From the NCBI RefSeq assembly GCF_001477625.1, contig NZ_CP013692.1, positions 3,658,001 through 3,722,000 of the forward strand: a DNA stretch of 64,000 bases, written 5' to 3'. The DNA comes from Paucibacter sp. KCTC 42545. GTDB taxonomy: Bacteria; Pseudomonadota; Gammaproteobacteria; Burkholderiales; Burkholderiaceae_C. Below are positions 57,276 through 63,689 of this stretch, piece by piece. The notes under the pieces were generated by a model, which saw nothing but the letters and a program-made list of their open reading frames with translations, made no database searches and was not told the DNA's origin. Position 1 is the stretch's first letter. Each line of letters begins with the position of its first letter. A program made the translations under genes and the position numbers.

Positions 57276-57668
57276 ATGAACTGGAATATGAGTTTGCTGC
57301 CCGTGGAGGCCTACCCCTCGACCCCGCAGGTGCACGAGCATGCGCCGGAGCACGCCGCTGCCGCGCTGGATCAAGCCGCAGCGCACCTGCCGCAGGATGC
57401 CTTGCTGATCGATGTGCGCAGCTACGCCGAGTTCATGGCCGGGCACCTGCCCGGCGCACATTGCCTGCCCATGCCGCGCCTGGAAGAGCAGATCCGCCTG
57501 CTGGCCACCGATGCCCAAACGCCGCTGATCGTCTATTGCGCCACCGGCGCGCGCGCCGAGTTGGCCCTGGGCTTGTTGCAACGCCTGGGCTACCGCCAAG
57601 CGCATTACGGCGGCAGCGCCGTCGATCTGGCCAAACAGTTGCACACGCGCTTGCAGCCCGGCATGTAG
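57276..57668 (+). CDS. Rhodanese-like sulfurtransferase domain protein
   Basis: 130 residues from ATG 57276, chosen for the AAGGAGA ribosome site. A single rhodanese domain is present: DALLIDVRSYAEFMAGHLPGAHCLP, then the active-site loop IVYCATGARAELAL with the persulfide Cys in CATGAR. It is cytoplasmic, without a signal peptide. Rhodaneses carry sulfur as a Cys persulfide. The gene is 210 bp after the DUF6671 gene on the same strand, so membership of the dab transcript is uncertain. Confidence 0.9.
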   Translation: MNWNMSLLPVEAYPSTPQVHEHAPEHAAAALDQAAAHLPQDALLIDVRSYAEFMAGHLPGAHCLPMPRLEEQIRLLATDAQTPLIVYCATGARAELALGLLQRLGYRQAHYGGSAVDLAKQLHTRLQPGM

Positions 57669-57890: not shown

Positions 57891-58523
57891 ATGTGCTGCT
57901 CATCTGCATCCCGCGACTTGGGAGTTTGGCGCTTCGCGCTGGCGGCCGGCCTTGCCGGTTTGCTGTCAGCCTGCGGTGGCGCGGCGGATGAGGCGGCTGC
58001 AGCGGCGGAGCGGGCTCAGCTTGCAGCGATGCGCCGGGCCGAGGAGGCTGCCGCCAAGCCCCTGGCCTTGACAGCACTGCCCCAGCTGCACCAATGCCTC
58101 GGTGAACTCAGCCGCAAGCTCAAGGCCGCTGCGCCCGAAGGGGACATCAATCTGGCTTGCCTTGCGGGCAGCTACCAAGGGCAAACCGATCGGGGCGAGG
58201 ACTGCCTGCTGCGCATCAATGCCGGCCAGCGCAGTTTTAACTACCGGGCCGGCCAGCGTGAGGTGCAGATTCTTTGGGCCACGGTCACGCAGACGGCTGA
58301 TGGCAAGCCCGTGCACAACCTGGAAAGCTCTGACCTCGATGCGCAGCGGCCGGGCGTGCAACTGAGCCAATTCACGGCCGTGCCCGAGGCCGTCACCGAG
58401 ACCATTGCGCTGCGGGCGGGTCAGCCCGTCGCGGGCGGCGGCGCGGCCGCGCTGCCGCAAATCGTTTATCAACGTGTTCAACAGGGGCAGCTCGAAGAGC
58501 TGGGCTGCCGATTTGGTGCCTGA
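57891..58523 (+). CDS. Putative lipoprotein
   Basis: 210 residues from ATG 57891, with a strong AGGAGGGG ribosome site. The signal sequence ends in a lipobox, LAGLLSACGG, so the mature N-terminal Cys (about residue 28) should be acylated. An Ala/Glu/Arg-rich helix (about 30-55) follows, then a compact globular domain with LACLAGSYQGQTDRGEDCLLRINAGQRSFNY. Three later Cys residues could form a disulfide. No known domain is recognised. It may be the first gene of the unit with the PEP-CTERM and tail-collar proteins 76 bp downstream. Confidence 0.8.
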   Translation: MCCSSASRDLGVWRFALAAGLAGLLSACGGAADEAAAAAERAQLAAMRRAEEAAAKPLALTALPQLHQCLGELSRKLKAAAPEGDINLACLAGSYQGQTDRGEDCLLRINAGQRSFNYRAGQREVQILWATVTQTADGKPVHNLESSDLDAQRPGVQLSQFTAVPEAVTETIALRAGQPVAGGGAAALPQIVYQRVQQGQLEELGCRFGA

Positions 58524-58599: not shown

Positions 58600-59319
58600 A
58601 TGCGAATGAATTCTTTGGCGTGTCGCGCATTGCTCGCGGCCACGGGTTTGGCCTGGGGCGCACACGCGGCGGCGGGGGTGGTGACCTACCAGAGCCAAGC
58701 GGCTTTCGTGACCGCCACCAGTGGCTTGGGCGCTGCGCAACTGAGCAACTTCGACGCTGCAGGCCTGCTGGGCAACGCTTACACAAACAGCGCCGGCAGC
58801 CCGAGTTTCAGTCTCAGCGCCGACTCCGCCGGCCCTGCCACGCCTTATGTCAAAGGCGGCTTCTGGACCACCTCGGGCTCGCAGTACCTGGGCCTGAACA
58901 ATGGCGACGGCGCCTTTCTGGGCGGCGACAGCCTAACTTTCAATTTGACCGGCTCGGTGCGGGCCTTCGGCCTTTACGTCATCACCGGCGCTGATGTGAT
59001 CGCCGGGGACATCGGCCTGACCATGGGCAGCACCCAGATGAGCAATGGCGCCAGCGCCGACCGCAGCGATGGCGCCGGCAGCTACGCCTACTTCTTCGGC
59101 CTGATCTCTGACACCGACTTGGGCAGTGTGACCATGAAGTTTGGTGACGGCAGCTTTTTTATGACGGCCACGGTGGACGATGTGAGCCTCTACGGCCCGG
59201 GGCAAACCGGCACCATCCCCGAGCCCAGCAGCCTGGCATTGTTGGGCTTAGGTCTGCTGGCACTTTGCGCGACAGCCCGGCGCCCGCACGGCAAGCCAGT
59301 TCAGGAGGCCAAGGTATGA
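58600..59319 (+). CDS. PEP-CTERM sorting-domain protein
   Basis: 239 residues from ATG 58600, with AAGGAG upstream. The signal peptide (about 1-24) ends AHAAAG. The mature region is Gly/Ser/Asn-rich beta structure, low in charged residues. The C-terminus carries the sorting signal: IPEPSSLALLGLGLLALCATARR, i.e. Pro-Glu-Pro, a membrane helix and Arg residues. Such proteins are cut by exosortase and released to or anchored in the extracellular matrix. No exosortase gene is in this window. The stop overlaps the start of the first tail-collar gene (ATGA), so the two are co-translated. Confidence 0.92.
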   Translation: MRMNSLACRALLAATGLAWGAHAAAGVVTYQSQAAFVTATSGLGAAQLSNFDAAGLLGNAYTNSAGSPSFSLSADSAGPATPYVKGGFWTTSGSQYLGLNNGDGAFLGGDSLTFNLTGSVRAFGLYVITGADVIAGDIGLTMGSTQMSNGASADRSDGAGSYAYFFGLISDTDLGSVTMKFGDGSFFMTATVDDVSLYGPGQTGTIPEPSSLALLGLGLLALCATARRPHGKPVQEAKV

Positions 59320-59930
59320 ATACGTCAGCACCCAAATCTTCCGTCCTGCGGGGCGCCCTGGCCTTGGCTGCGCTATGCCTGCTGCCCACTGCGCCCGCCG
59401 TTGCGGGCAGTGAACCCATACTCGGAGAAATCGTCTGCGGTGCCTGGAACTTTGCGCCCAGGGGCTGGATGATGGCGCAAGGCCAGCTGCTCTCAATTTC
59501 GCAGAACACCGCCTTGTTTTCGCTGCTCGGCACACAGTACGGCGGCGATGGCCGCAGCACGTTTGCGCTGCCCGACCTGCGTGGCCGCGCCGCGATCAAC
59601 GCCGGCCAAGGACCCGGCTTAAGTGAATATGTGATGGGGCAGCAAGGCGGTGCGGAAACGACGAGCCTGCTAGCGAGCAATCTTCCTGCCCATAGCCATC
59701 AGGTCGTGCAACTGGGCAGCACGCAAGACGCCAGCCTGCAGTCACCGGCCGGGGCCGTGCCCGCCAGCAAGGCGCGCAGCCAATTCTACGCCGCTGCCAC
59801 GCCAGGGACCGCAAGAGCGGCGAGCCGAACCGATTCGGCAGGCCAAGGCCAGCCCATCAACATCATGCAACCCTATCTGGCGATGAGCTGTGTCATCGCC
59901 ACGCAGGGTGTCTTTCCTTCCCGTCCGTAA
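59316..59930 (+). CDS. Exported tail-collar (Mdp-type) protein 1
   Basis: 204 residues from ATG 59316. A signal peptide (about 1-31, ending APAVAG) precedes a phage tail-collar/microcystin-dependent-protein domain: GEIVCGAWNFAPRGWMMAQG, ALFSLLGTQYGGDGRSTFAL, DLRGRAAINAGQGPG, LASNLPAHSHQV and a C-terminal MSCVIATQGVFPSRP. Ordinary Mdp proteins lack the signal peptide and the cysteines. Here Cys41 and Cys192 are placed to form a disulfide, fitting an extracytoplasmic protein. It is translationally coupled to the PEP-CTERM gene. The collar fold trimerises in phage tails; the role here is unknown. Confidence 0.9.
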   Translation: MNTSAPKSSVLRGALALAALCLLPTAPAVAGSEPILGEIVCGAWNFAPRGWMMAQGQLLSISQNTALFSLLGTQYGGDGRSTFALPDLRGRAAINAGQGPGLSEYVMGQQGGAETTSLLASNLPAHSHQVVQLGSTQDASLQSPAGAVPASKARSQFYAAATPGTARAASRTDSAGQGQPINIMQPYLAMSCVIATQGVFPSRP

Positions 59931-59943
59931 GCAGGGGCTCATC

Positions 59944-60582
59944 ATGATCAGCAAGAGCGAAAGAAACCCTTTGAACTTGAGCATGCGGCGGTGCCGCCGC
60001 GCCCTGGCGATCCCCTTGATGGGGCTAGCGCTGGCCGGCATGCCGTCCGCTCATGCTGGCACGGACCCCTTCATCGGCCAGGTCATGTGCGGCGGCTGGA
60101 ACTTCGCGCCCTATGGTTGGATGGAGATGGATGGCCGACTGCTGCCCATTGCCGAGTACGACACCTTGTTCGCCCTGATCGGCACTACCTTTGGTGGAGA
60201 TGGCGTGCAGACCTTTGCCCTGCCAGACACGCGCAGCCGCATGGTGGTGAGCCAAGGCACGGGGCCCGGCTTGTCCACCCGCGTGCTGGGCCAGGCCATG
60301 GGAAGCGAAAGCCAGACCCTGACGAGCAGCCAGCTGCCTTCGCACAGCCATGGCTACCGCCCGCAAGGCAGCTTGGGTGATGCCACAGCGCTGTCTCCGG
60401 CAGCTGCAGTGGCCGCCAACAAGGCCCGCACAACGCTGTATGCGCCCGGCCCCGGCACTGTGCCCATGCAAGGCGTGCAAAGCAGCGTGACAGGGGGCAG
60501 CCAGCCCTTCCAGGTGCAGCAGCCGTATCAAACGATCAAGTGCGTCATCGCCGTGTGGGGGATCTTCCCCTCGCAAAACTGA
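59944..60582 (+). CDS. Exported tail-collar (Mdp-type) protein 2
   Basis: 212 residues from ATG 59944, 13 bp after protein 1. The signal peptide has a basic start (MRRCRRALAIPLMGLALAG) and a likely cut after PSAHA. The collar domain has GQVMCGGWNFAPYGWMEMDG, ALIGTTFGGDGVQTFAL, DTRSRMVVSQGTGPG, SSQLPSHSHGYR and a C-terminal IKCVIAVWGIFPSQN. Cys49 and Cys200 match the cysteines of proteins 1 and 3. It is clearly a paralogue by tandem duplication, though well diverged, so the duplication is old. No enzymatic motif is seen. Confidence 0.9.
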   Translation: MISKSERNPLNLSMRRCRRALAIPLMGLALAGMPSAHAGTDPFIGQVMCGGWNFAPYGWMEMDGRLLPIAEYDTLFALIGTTFGGDGVQTFALPDTRSRMVVSQGTGPGLSTRVLGQAMGSESQTLTSSQLPSHSHGYRPQGSLGDATALSPAAAVAANKARTTLYAPGPGTVPMQGVQSSVTGGSQPFQVQQPYQTIKCVIAVWGIFPSQN

Positions 60583-60642
60583 TGAGATCGGCCGCCGCCA
60601 TGGCTGCGGCTGAACCCGTACCGAATCAATCAAGGAGTTGCC

Positions 60643-61242
60643 ATGTCTTTGCAACAAGCAAATCGTCTGGCCCGTCAGCTGCGTGGGCTTGGCCTGAGCG
60701 TTTGCCTCTTGGGCGCGACAGCGTCCTGGGCCGACACCCCGTTTTTGGGTGAAACCGCCTGCGGCATCTGGAACTTCGCGCCCAAGGGTTGGGCGCTGAT
60801 GAACGGGCAGTTACTGTCCATCCAACAAAACCAAGCTTTGTTTTCGCTCCTGGGCACGAGTTACGGCGGCAACGGTATCCAGACCTTTGCCCTGCCCGAC
60901 ACGCGTGGCCGAGTTGTCATCGGCGCGGGTGCTCAGTACCAAGTCGGTGATCGCGGCGGTACCGAGGCGGTGACCTTGACGACGGCGCAAATGCCCATGC
61001 ACAACCACGAGGTCGCGCTGCCCGGCAGCGCCTCGATCGGTGACACGCAAAGCCCCGCCGGCAAATCCCCCGCCAGCCAGAGCCGCAGCACCTTGTACGC
61101 CGCGCCCAGCGTGCCGGGTGTGGATATGAGCCCGGCCTCCGTGGCCTCGGCCGGTGGCAATCAGCCCGTCAGCGTGATGCAGCCCTCTCTGACGCTGACC
61201 TGTGTGATTGCCCTGCAAGGGATTTTTCCGAGCAGAGACTAA
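60643..61242 (+). CDS. Exported tail-collar (Mdp-type) protein 3
   Basis: 199 residues from ATG 60643, with AAGGAG upstream. The signal peptide (about 1-30) ends ATASWA. The collar domain has GETACGIWNFAPKGWALMNG, ALFSLLGTSYGGNGIQTFAL, DTRGRVVIGAG, TAQMPMHNHEVALPG and a C-terminal LTCVIALQGIFPSRD. Cys40 and Cys187 repeat the conserved pair. It is 60 bp after protein 2 and ends the cluster, converging on the lactonase gene. The three homologues may form hetero- or homotrimers on the surface, by analogy with tail collar proteins. Confidence 0.9.
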   Translation: MSLQQANRLARQLRGLGLSVCLLGATASWADTPFLGETACGIWNFAPKGWALMNGQLLSIQQNQALFSLLGTSYGGNGIQTFALPDTRGRVVIGAGAQYQVGDRGGTEAVTLTTAQMPMHNHEVALPGSASIGDTQSPAGKSPASQSRSTLYAAPSVPGVDMSPASVASAGGNQPVSVMQPSLTLTCVIALQGIFPSRD

Positions 61243-61279: not shown

Positions 61280-62437
61280 TCACATGCTGGCAAACACCAG
61301 ATGCGCCGGGCTGGGCACCGGGACATAGCGCCCGGTGAATTGCAGGCCAGCGCCACGCTCAGCCAAGCGAAACACCGCCAGGTGATCGCTGCGCTGATTG
61401 CAGACGAAGAAGTAGCGGCCGCTGGGGTCGAAGCTGCCGCTGCGCGGATAGCTGCCGCGCGTCCACTCATGGCCCAGCAACTGCGGGCTGCCGGCGGCGT
61501 CGATCTCGAAAATAGCGATGGCATCGTGCAGGCGATTCAGGCAAAGAAGCTGGCCACCGTCGGGCGTGAACTGCAGCTCCGACGCGAAGCTGGTGCCCGC
61601 AAAGCCCGTCGGCAAGGTGCTGACTTCGCCCAGCGCCCGCAGCACGCCGCCCGCCTGCGCATCGAAGCGCCACCAGCTCAAGCTGGATGACTCTTCATTG
61701 AGCACGTAACACAGCGAGGCATCGCGCGGATGAAAACACAGCTGGCGCGGCCCGGCGCCCGCCGAGCTGGGGTGGCAGCGCGGCGCCGATAAGCGGCCAC
61801 TGCGCGCATCGAACTGCCAGCTGATGATTTGATCCAGCCCCAAATCCGTGCTCAGCAAGAACTGGCCCGTGGGGTCGAGATTTGCCTGGTGGGCATGCGG
61901 CCCGTCGTGGTCGCTGTGAGCAAAACTGCCGGGCGGCGCATGCTGCGCCAGCGCGGTGTAGGGCTGCAGGGTTTTGAACTGGGCCGGGCTTTGCTGATCC
62001 AGCTGTTGCCCCAGGCCGCCAGCCGCGTCCAAGGCCAGCACAGCCAAGCTGCCACAGCCGTAGTTGGCCACGAAGAGATAGCGCTCTTGCGCATCCAGGC
62101 TTAAATGCACCGGTCGCGCCCCGCCCGAGGCCACGCAGCCGGCCAGGCTCAGCGCACCGCTGGTGGCATCGCGCCGATAGACGCTCACCGAGCCGGACAA
62201 ACGGCCTTGAAAATCCTCATGCTCATTGGCCACATAAAGCCGGGAGTGATCGGCATTGAAGAGCAAGAAGCTAGGGTTGGGCGCCAGGTCCGGCGTGCCC
62301 AAGCTTTGCAAGTCGGCCTCGGCGCCGACGCCGTTCATGGCGAAGCGGTAGATGCCTTGACCATGCGGGGCATAACTGCCCACATAAGCGTGGCAAGGCT
62401 TGGCACTGATGTCGGAGCTGACTGGCAGAAGATTCAC
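61280..62437 (-). CDS. Lactonase family protein (6-phosphogluconolactonase-type beta-propeller)
   Basis: About 385 residues. No ATG suits the N-terminus: the reading frame offers GTG 62437 (reading MNLLPVSSDISAK) 35 bases after the NagX-like stop, which I prefer. The protein is a seven-bladed propeller of the YbhE/lactonase family, with blade sequences FLLFNADHSRLYVANEHED, HLSLDAQERYLFVANYGCGSL, HAHQANLDPTGQFLLSTDLGLD, RQLCFHPRDASLCYVLNEESS and GSFDPSGRYFFVCNQRSDHLAVF. Such enzymes hydrolyse sugar lactones such as 6-phosphogluconolactone. It has no clear signal peptide. It forms an operon with the NagX-like gene and the TonB receptor. Confidence 0.88.
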   Translation of the reverse strand: MNLLPVSSDISAKPCHAYVGSYAPHGQGIYRFAMNGVGAEADLQSLGTPDLAPNPSFLLFNADHSRLYVANEHEDFQGRLSGSVSVYRRDATSGALSLAGCVASGGARPVHLSLDAQERYLFVANYGCGSLAVLALDAAGGLGQQLDQQSPAQFKTLQPYTALAQHAPPGSFAHSDHDGPHAHQANLDPTGQFLLSTDLGLDQIISWQFDARSGRLSAPRCHPSSAGAGPRQLCFHPRDASLCYVLNEESSSLSWWRFDAQAGGVLRALGEVSTLPTGFAGTSFASELQFTPDGGQLLCLNRLHDAIAIFEIDAAGSPQLLGHEWTRGSYPRSGSFDPSGRYFFVCNQRSDHLAVFRLAERGAGLQFTGRYVPVPSPAHLVFASM

Positions 62438-62471
62438 GATCGAGAAGGACAGAAAACTGAAGAATGGGAGT

Positions 62472-63689
62472 CTAGATGCGCAGGCGAACCCCACGCGCCG
62501 CGATGAACTTGACGAAGGCCGCCACCGCCACGGCATAGGCCATGCCGAACATCACCCCCAACGGTGCGCTGCGAGTGAAGGCCGGCCACACCCAGTGCAG
62601 CAGCTGCATCAGCGCTTCAACGACGAAGGGCGTCAGATAAGCCAGCAAGGGGTTGGCTGCCACCGCATCCAGCAAGCCGGGCAGGCGTGGCGCGGCCACG
62701 GAAGTTGCCGCCGTACGTTGCCGCCACTCCAGCCACAGCTGCAAAGCGGCAAAGATCAGCACGCAAGCCGCCGCGCTGTAGAGCGCCCAGCTGGGCGTGG
62801 CGTAGATCTTGGAGATCTTGAACGCCGGCCGCATCAGCCCCGCCAGCACGGCGAGCGCGGCAGCAAACAACAGGGCCAGGCCCAGGCGCTGCGCCATGCT
62901 GCGGGCACGCGTCTGGTCGAAGAAGATCAGCGCCGTGATGCTGCCGCTGATCGCCAAGCCACCATGCACCGCATTGCCATCCTGACTGAACAGCAGACGC
63001 AGCCAGTCGCTGCTCTGCACCAGCGGCAGGCGCTGCAGGACGAAGTAAGCCATGCACAAGCCCAGCGCCAGCAGCAGGCCGCCCACGCGAGCCCGGCACA
63101 GCAAGAATGCCATGCAGCCAAGCAAATAAGCCCAGCCGATCAGACCCAGAATGCCCCACCACTGCGTCGTCATGCTGCCGCTGCCGTCTGGCGCGCCGCG
63201 ATAAAGCCAGGCCAGTAACGCAAATAGCGCTACACCGGCCAGCCGCCAGCCGCCCGCCAAGGCCGGCCCGCCGCGCAGCGAGCCCCACAGGGCAAAGGCG
63301 GCCACATAGCTCAGCAGCGCCCACAGAGCAATCGGCATGGGCATAGATGCGGCATGGAAGCCGTCTTCCGCGTTGACCATGAAGACGCCAATCAACACCA
63401 GGCTTAAGCCCCGTTGCAGCACATGCAGCAAGAGTTGGCGCGGCGTATCGCCGGCCTTCAGGCGTTGCTGCAGCGCGAAGGGAATGGACATGCCGACGAT
63501 GAACAAAAAGGCCGGAAAGACCACATCGACAAAGCTCATCGCATCCACATCCGCCGGCATATGCAGCATCCAGGCCGGCAGATCGTTGACCCGATGCCAT
63601 TCATTGACGGTGATCATCACCAGCACCGTCAGGGCGCGAAAGATATCGATGCTGGCAATGCGGCCAGCGCGCAAATGGCGTCCGAACAT
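62472..63689 (-). CDS. NagX-like membrane protein (DUF5009, HGSNAT/acyltransferase-like)
   Basis: 405 residues, about 10-11 membrane helices. It starts with RIASIDIFRALTVLVMITVNEW, the family signature, followed by VDVVFPAFLFIVGMSIPFAL. A segment AHGGLAISGSITALIF-like region and the C-terminal NPLLAYLTPFVVEALMQLL are also typical. Relatives include eukaryotic heparan-glucosaminide N-acetyltransferase and the bacterial NagX found in N-acetylglucosamine or glycan uptake loci, where a transport role is proposed. ATG 63689 overlaps the stop of the upstream TonB receptor. The substrate is unproven. Confidence 0.85.
   Translation of the reverse strand: MFGRHLRAGRIASIDIFRALTVLVMITVNEWHRVNDLPAWMLHMPADVDAMSFVDVVFPAFLFIVGMSIPFALQQRLKAGDTPRQLLLHVLQRGLSLVLIGVFMVNAEDGFHAASMPMPIALWALLSYVAAFALWGSLRGGPALAGGWRLAGVALFALLAWLYRGAPDGSGSMTTQWWGILGLIGWAYLLGCMAFLLCRARVGGLLLALGLCMAYFVLQRLPLVQSSDWLRLLFSQDGNAVHGGLAISGSITALIFFDQTRARSMAQRLGLALLFAAALAVLAGLMRPAFKISKIYATPSWALYSAAACVLIFAALQLWLEWRQRTAATSVAAPRLPGLLDAVAANPLLAYLTPFVVEALMQLLHWVWPAFTRSAPLGVMFGMAYAVAVAAFVKFIAARGVRLRI

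Follow-up and report, generated by a model that had tools for sequence, protein, structure and literature searches.

In the stretch of DNA analysed here, 64,000 nucleotides of Paucibacter sp. KCTC 42545 (contig NZ_CP013692.1, positions 3,658,001 to 3,722,000; hereafter the window), a predicted lipoprotein gene, a gene for a PEP-CTERM protein (family A, PEP-A) and three tandem genes for exported phage tail collar proteins (Collar, PF07484; collars 1 to 3) follow one another on the same strand (Table 1). An earlier note, made from the sequence alone, had described the PEP-CTERM gene, its ATGA overlap with the first of three collar paralogues, the pairs Cys41/192, Cys49/200 and Cys40/187, and a signal peptide on each collar; all of these are present, the signal peptides being called by eye together with a hydrophobicity rule, with AVA, AHA and SWA preceding the mature ends. 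All three collars exceed the curated PF07484 cut-off of 24. The PEP-CTERM protein scores 27.9 bits against a PF07589 cut-off of 20.7, and its signal peptide, likewise called by eye, its PEP motif, helix and basic end, together with an exosortase encoded in the genome, predict sorting. All 15 aligned collars have the HxH motif, which in T4 fibres binds metal, and purifying selection acts on all five genes (ratio of nonsynonymous to synonymous substitution rates 0.12-0.27 versus congener G014). Exported, cysteine-paired collars beside a surface-tagged protein, found in several environmental bacteria, point to an undescribed surface structure as judged from the genes.

Table 1. Genes and features of the collar locus, numbered from the first letter of the window.
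Feature	Position	Strand	Details
Predicted lipoprotein gene	57891..58523	+	lipobox LLSAC; no Pfam or PHROGs family
PEP-A gene, 239 aa, signal peptide, C-terminal exosortase tag	58600..59319	+	
PEP-CTERM sorting motif, residues 205-228	59212..59283	+	
ATGA stop/start overlap, PEP-CTERM gene/collar 1	59316..59319	+	
Exported collar protein 1, 204 aa, Collar domain residues 37-92	59316..59930	+	PF07484 89.5 bits; orthologue group 97/89
Cys41 codon, collar 1	59436..59438	+	read from sequence
Cys192 codon, collar 1	59889..59891	+	read from sequence
Exported collar protein 2, 212 aa, Collar domain residues 45-101	59944..60582	+	PF07484 78.6 bits; orthologue group 100/99
Cys49 codon, collar 2	60088..60090	+	read from sequence
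Cys200 codon, collar 2	60541..60543	+	read from sequence
Exported collar protein 3, 199 aa, Collar domain residues 43-92	60643..61242	+	PF07484 81.6 bits; orthologue group 97/88
Cys40 codon, collar 3	60760..60762	+	read from sequence
Cys187 codon, collar 3	61201..61203	+	read from sequence

The host genome encodes two exosortases of the EpsH family (246.3 and 229.6 bits) and 55 PEP-CTERM motifs above the cut-off, so that a lone PEP-CTERM neighbour would mean little. The pairing recurs, however. A PEP-A profile whose source is a database search, not the collar neighbourhood, finds full-length PEP-A (184-334 bits) in 8 of 399 genomes of the host family, and in 8 of 8 it lies directly upstream of an exported collar with cysteines at positions 40 and 187 of the collar 3 numbering (C40/C187); the remaining listed hits reach at most 45 bits and start at model position 94 or beyond. 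At the order level a match is found in 3 of 399 genomes, namely the window genome, G728 and G756, and G728, from a different family, carries a lipoprotein gene, PEP-A with the ATGA overlap and two C40/C187 collars. These genome searches scored about seven candidates per genome (5-6 in the search for family PEP-B, below), and hits may be missed. Of the 12 separate C40/C187 loci whose surroundings were retrieved, 10 have PEP-A upstream. The four-base overlap is also present in L159, L160 and L248, given the starts chosen. The lipoprotein gene, proposed in the earlier note as a possible base, is itself recurrent: a homologue precedes PEP-A in 5 of the 10 PEP-A loci (88% in L160, 53% in L159, 41% over 106 amino acids in L248 and 27% in L037), and the order lipoprotein, PEP-CTERM, collar(s) is conserved in part of the loci. 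The expected co-occurrence with exosortase is seen in all 11 tested genomes with C40/C187 collars.

Over all collar clusters, 17 of 36 exported ones, versus 10 of 86 without signal peptides, have a same-strand gene with a tag, as called by a tag rule, no more than 600 bases upstream (Fisher p 6e-5, kinship uncorrected). The background, calculated from 27 other tag-like open reading frames in 2,031 kb of fetched loci, is 0.0045 per 680 bp of single strand; recurrence far above this level makes the pairing more than chance, and the coupling of exported collars to PEP-CTERM genes is frequent, not constant. With L170 and L171, which belong to PEP-B by homology, exported clusters with a PEP-CTERM neighbour become 19 of 36; the tag rule missed these two as well as L040/L255, where a third family, PEP-D, has an altered tag. 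Clusters with fewer than 600 bases upstream (L045, L048, L049, L056, L078, L081, L093) are excluded from the counts, contigs filed as viral (L199-L215) from both the counts and the cysteine tables, and duplicate loci are counted once (L036 = L161, L040 = L255). The pairing, whose recurrence the earlier note had put up for testing, is supported as family-specific for PEP-A and holds for part of the exported clusters at large.

The two other families were found with profiles built from collar neighbours. PEP-B is present in 5 of 374 genomes, in 5 of 5 beside collars, and the exported collars there have four cysteines; its profile was made from those five hits, so what the search adds is that no further member turned up. 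L050 and L092, both gammaproteobacterial, have distant PEP-B relatives ahead of their exported collars. PEP-D is present in 13 of 374 genomes, in 13 of 13 beside collar triplets without signal peptides, and lies upstream of the triplet in L252, L253, L254, L191, L256 and L260-L266; seven of the 13 hits fall outside the profile set, and all seven, when checked, show three collars lacking signal peptides. In three PEP-D genomes (one genus) the tag reads PEL instead of PEP. PEP-D is the very case that the earlier note had named as speaking against it, homologues without signal peptide or cysteine pair beside a PEP-CTERM gene, and the idea that cysteines plus signal peptide define the pairing was rejected on this account.

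Partners of other kinds also occur. A GXY-repeat (collagen-like) protein precedes exported collars in five loci (L174-L178), with the Pfam Collagen model below its cut-off in both GXY proteins tested; in the five GXY genomes, the exosortase search gives no match in three, a partial 32-bit match in one and a 79-bit match in one. An HlyD-family adaptor gene stands before an exported collar with no PEP-CTERM gene in L173 (9118-9972, by Pfam) and L198 (9248-10099, 76% identical). Beside triplets without signal peptides, 54 loci (L115:282-7967, L086:2-7765, L074:3-7952 and others; L040/L255 being the same place) share neighbour clusters, GNAT-like in 42, DUF6916-like in 30 and giant proteins in 22, the Pfam naming of these clusters resting on one or two members each; the giant proteins so named are Ig/cadherin-like.

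Co-regulation could account for such neighbourhoods, the collars and PEP-CTERM proteins being separate matrix components that make no contact. BLAST gives no match between PEP-A and PEP-B, PEP-D forms a third family and GXY proteins take the place elsewhere, so that no single interface is conserved. Set against this, tag and collar share one chain in other bacteria: PF07484 and PF07589 stand together in 12 of 120 among the matches listed for P0083, a chain with more than one collar copy (P0083 included), and tag-like tails end 17 of 103 further P0083 relatives examined. Moreover, full-length members of the PEP families are seen solely beside collars in the genomes searched, a weak hit in G756 excepted, and co-regulation without contact is rather unlikely.

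The cysteines were compared in 331 distinct homologues in a MAFFT alignment with collar 3 numbering; the sample was assembled from sequences related to the window's proteins and does not amount to a census, and open reading frames of loci without a settable anchor or start were dropped. By the hydrophobicity rule 133 of the 331 look exported, so export is not rare among homologues, which qualifies the earlier note's picture of Mdp ("microcystin-dependent") collar proteins as normally lacking export signals. As to the cysteines, 92 of the 133 exported proteins have C187, against 3 of the 198 non-exported ones (Fisher p 6e-45, kinship uncorrected), and signal peptide and cysteine pair travel together. 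P0048, P0055 and P0070 were scored as non-exported although they have a pair of the exported type; their starts seem to be truncated or their signal peptides to have been missed. C40 is accompanied by C187 in 70 of 71 proteins, the lone exception being L064.

Among the 133 exported proteins, 68 carry C40 and C187, 24 carry C53 and C187, 10 carry C46 and C188, and nine combine C29, C39, C46 and C188; the rest comprise five with an N-terminal pair near 29/39, four with C33 and C190, one with C53 and C188, 10 with a lone C53, one with C41 and C53, and one with none. The 198 non-exported proteins divide into 85 with a lone C53, 52 with C53 and C188, 32 with C53 and C184, nine with C53 and C190, three with C187 and 17 in small classes; proteins without signal peptides thus often pair C53 with a near-C-terminal cysteine at 188, 184 or 190, and rarely at 187. 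The all-or-none pair, its link with export and the other cysteine pairs that span these two regions form the pattern expected of a disulfide. In the tree, all 20 C40/C187 rows form one clade (Shimodaira-Hasegawa-like approximate likelihood ratio test, SH-aLRT, 97), consistent with a single origin of this type, and the export state switches at least five times on the same tree.

The phage tail collar fold is an intertwined trimer, and the gene arrays bear on how such a trimer may be composed. The survey confirmed at least 591 collar stretches; 80 genome loci from many phyla were taken, with runs of three collars in 44, single collars in 30, pairs in four and groups of four in two, some one- or two-collar loci possibly being cut by contig ends. 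Both four-collar loci break down further, into one plus three genes and into a three-gene run with one gene split. Two-gene loci include L248, L060 and L174-L176, and larger arrays hold six (L201) and nine (L199) collars. The contigs filed as viral (L199:1-5453, L201:5450-8723, L200, L202), with arrays of nine, six and three and some signal peptides, may be bacterial.

In G050, which belongs to another genus, the orthologues of the window's three collars keep their order, so the three genes are old and separately kept. Collars 1 and 2 fall outside the three classical paralogue clades, and collar 3 was placed in the separate orthologue tree only. The three exported collars of L092 cluster exclusively with one another (99); the three of L045 lie outside the C40/C187 clade, together with two further Chryseobacterium collars (98). 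Some proteins have two or three collar copies on a single chain; one collar protein, P0195, is listed with PF00353 (RTX-type repeats) as well, which hints at another export route.

These arrangements fit a trimeric fold whose subunits could come from three genes, from a single gene or from one continuous chain, and the three-gene arrays give a hint of heterotrimers. The paralogues may instead be homotrimers, each collar forming its own trimer with its own ligand and the three supplying three specificities, a variant of the surface-assembly reading that does not exclude it. In many exported loci the same PEP-CTERM family is accompanied by just one collar gene (L161-L165), so one gene suffices, and two-gene loci exist. 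Tandem runs nevertheless end at three in the 80 genome loci, the larger arrays number six and nine, and there are the single chains with two or three copies; homotrimers are quite possible, at a little below even chances.

Taken together, the locus on balance probably encodes an exosortase-linked assembly of the cell surface (or matrix) containing trimeric collar proteins. The collars would exit via Sec, as their Sec-type signal peptides suggest, and in the periplasm a disulfide would join the N-terminal region of each to its C-terminal strand. Collar-type trimers would form, possibly heterotrimers of 1, 2 and 3 in loci that retain three genes, and work with the PEP-CTERM protein, which exosortase would process and the C-terminal tag would direct to the outer surface or the exopolysaccharide. 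The PEP-A ectodomain (approximately residues 39-205) is a predicted β-sandwich, followed by a helix at 210-224; a sandwich of this kind, resembling carbohydrate-binding modules, may bind a surface glycan or hold the collar unit. The lipoprotein may act as an outer-membrane foot in some genomes, and the likeliest role of the whole would be adhesion or matrix cross-linking via a compact trimeric tip. The interpretation of the earlier note, an exported, disulfide-stabilised trimer organised by an exosortase-sorted partner, is partly supported.

Several observations weigh against this assembly. Exported clusters with a tag-bearing upstream gene amount to 17 of the 36 fetched; two C40/C187 loci, L166 and L167, have no PEP-CTERM neighbour; PEP-D genes pair with triplets that lack signal peptides; and the PEP-A hit of G756 (66 bits) has no collar in the 17 kb fetched. 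A clear cysteine pair is missing from 12 of the 133 exported homologues, and most of the 12 chains that fuse tag and collar lack both cysteines and a recognisable signal peptide, their predicted starts possibly being truncated. Structure matches of PEP-A are weak, its sequence giving a single match in the PDB (E 0.99), and the collar monomer model from 15 sequences is poor (predicted local distance difference test, pLDDT, 49) and gives no contact or disulfide. A bolder version would make the locus a new class of surface structure, in which collars 1, 2 and 3 form an obligate heterotrimer, each closed by an N-to-C disulfide and mounted on the lipoprotein foot by an exosortase-sorted partner (a collagen-like stalk where exosortase is missing), and of which the triplets without signal peptides beside PEP-D or giant Ig/cadherin-like genes would be further instances; this we regard as tentative and somewhat unlikely.

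Two further explanations start from the phage ancestry of the fold. In the first, the exported protein would serve as a decoy or a receptor mask on the surface: being tail-like, it would bind the cell's own glycans in the manner of a fibre and block phage adsorption, held on the surface by its PEP-CTERM partner; the profile relatives are phage tail and fibre proteins, and the patchy presence of collars (5 of 18 genomes of the genus) would suit a defence-like role. The named neighbours give no defence hint (no defence library was searched), and lipoprotein and PEP-A partners recurring in at least two families fit a structural role better, which leaves a decoy very unlikely. A prophage or tailocin remnant with the PEP-CTERM gene adjacent by chance is extremely unlikely: PHROGs and Pfam do name the collars phage tail proteins, but a whole-genome Collar search of the 5.17 Mb host genome returns the window's three genes alone, the neighbours are cell genes or DUFs, and the collars have signal peptides, purifying selection and a recurrent partner. 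No tail, baseplate or structural genes are seen among the locus and flank genes scanned, the genome beyond them having been scanned for Collar alone, and the remnant was rejected.

Several known systems come close. Mdp collars without signal peptides (PF07484, COG4675) share the domain family, a similar mature length and frequent triplets; they nearly always have C53, rarely C40/C187, and many have GNAT or DUF6916 neighbours, whereas the window's collars are exported and cysteine-paired, and neither GNAT nor DUF6916 is found among the named neighbours. PEP-CTERM/exosortase proteins, as outlined in passages of Haft 2006 (PMC1569441), share the signal peptide, the C-terminal PEP motif and a genomic exosortase. 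PepA of Aquincola is reported to affect flocculation (PMC9850573). Most PEP-CTERM genes are reported in that source to be in single-gene operons, unlike the window's gene, which overlaps a collar gene and whose family is found beside collars.

The MAT adhesins of Bdellovibrio (PMC10769870) are likewise signal-peptide-bearing, trimeric, phage-fibre-like proteins of a bacterial surface; as described in parts of that paper, a conserved domain of ~130 residues after the signal peptide leads into a long trimeric fibre with trimeric β-prisms, and 13 of 21 have an S74 domain. The word "collar" is absent from its main text, and its passages on MAT name no exosortase partner. At 199-212 amino acids with Collar as sole Pfam match, the window's collars look too short for a MAT fibre, as judged without a MAT profile. 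Collar-type sequence matches link them to the T4 gp12 short tail fibre (1ocy, E 0.79) and the long tail fibre 8kec (E 3e-7), which differ as phage proteins within longer fibres and are not known to carry an export signal.

The component families and surface adhesins of phage-fibre fold are thus already known, and the novelty lies in the pairing of collars with exosortase-tagged partners, which was not found in searches of an open-licence library, where no paper has both "tail collar" and "PEP-CTERM". That library yielded no described function for Collar/Mdp genes either; soil metaproteomes list COG4675 Collar/Mdp proteins in the passages available of PMC5579227. The three PEP-CTERM families and the dual-domain chains give a concrete lead on where these widespread proteins act, and PEP-CTERM proteins gain a defined candidate partner. 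If the assembly is real, a fold from phage tails has become a component of the bacterial surface, its cysteines positioned in several different ways among the exported groups.

Around the locus, the flanks encode DabA, a DUF6671 protein, a rhodanese, a lactonase and a DUF5009 protein (Pfam). A PHROGs scan of seven non-collar genes, lipoprotein and PEP-CTERM included, matches the lactonase alone, to a family of unknown function. Sigma-54 promoter matches in the window number 32 versus 35.5 expected, with no excess, and the promoter and terminator scan stays near chance. Relatives of the lactonase (61280-62536) and the rhodanese (57276-57668) recur near a collar in another genus (L163, L164, L165).

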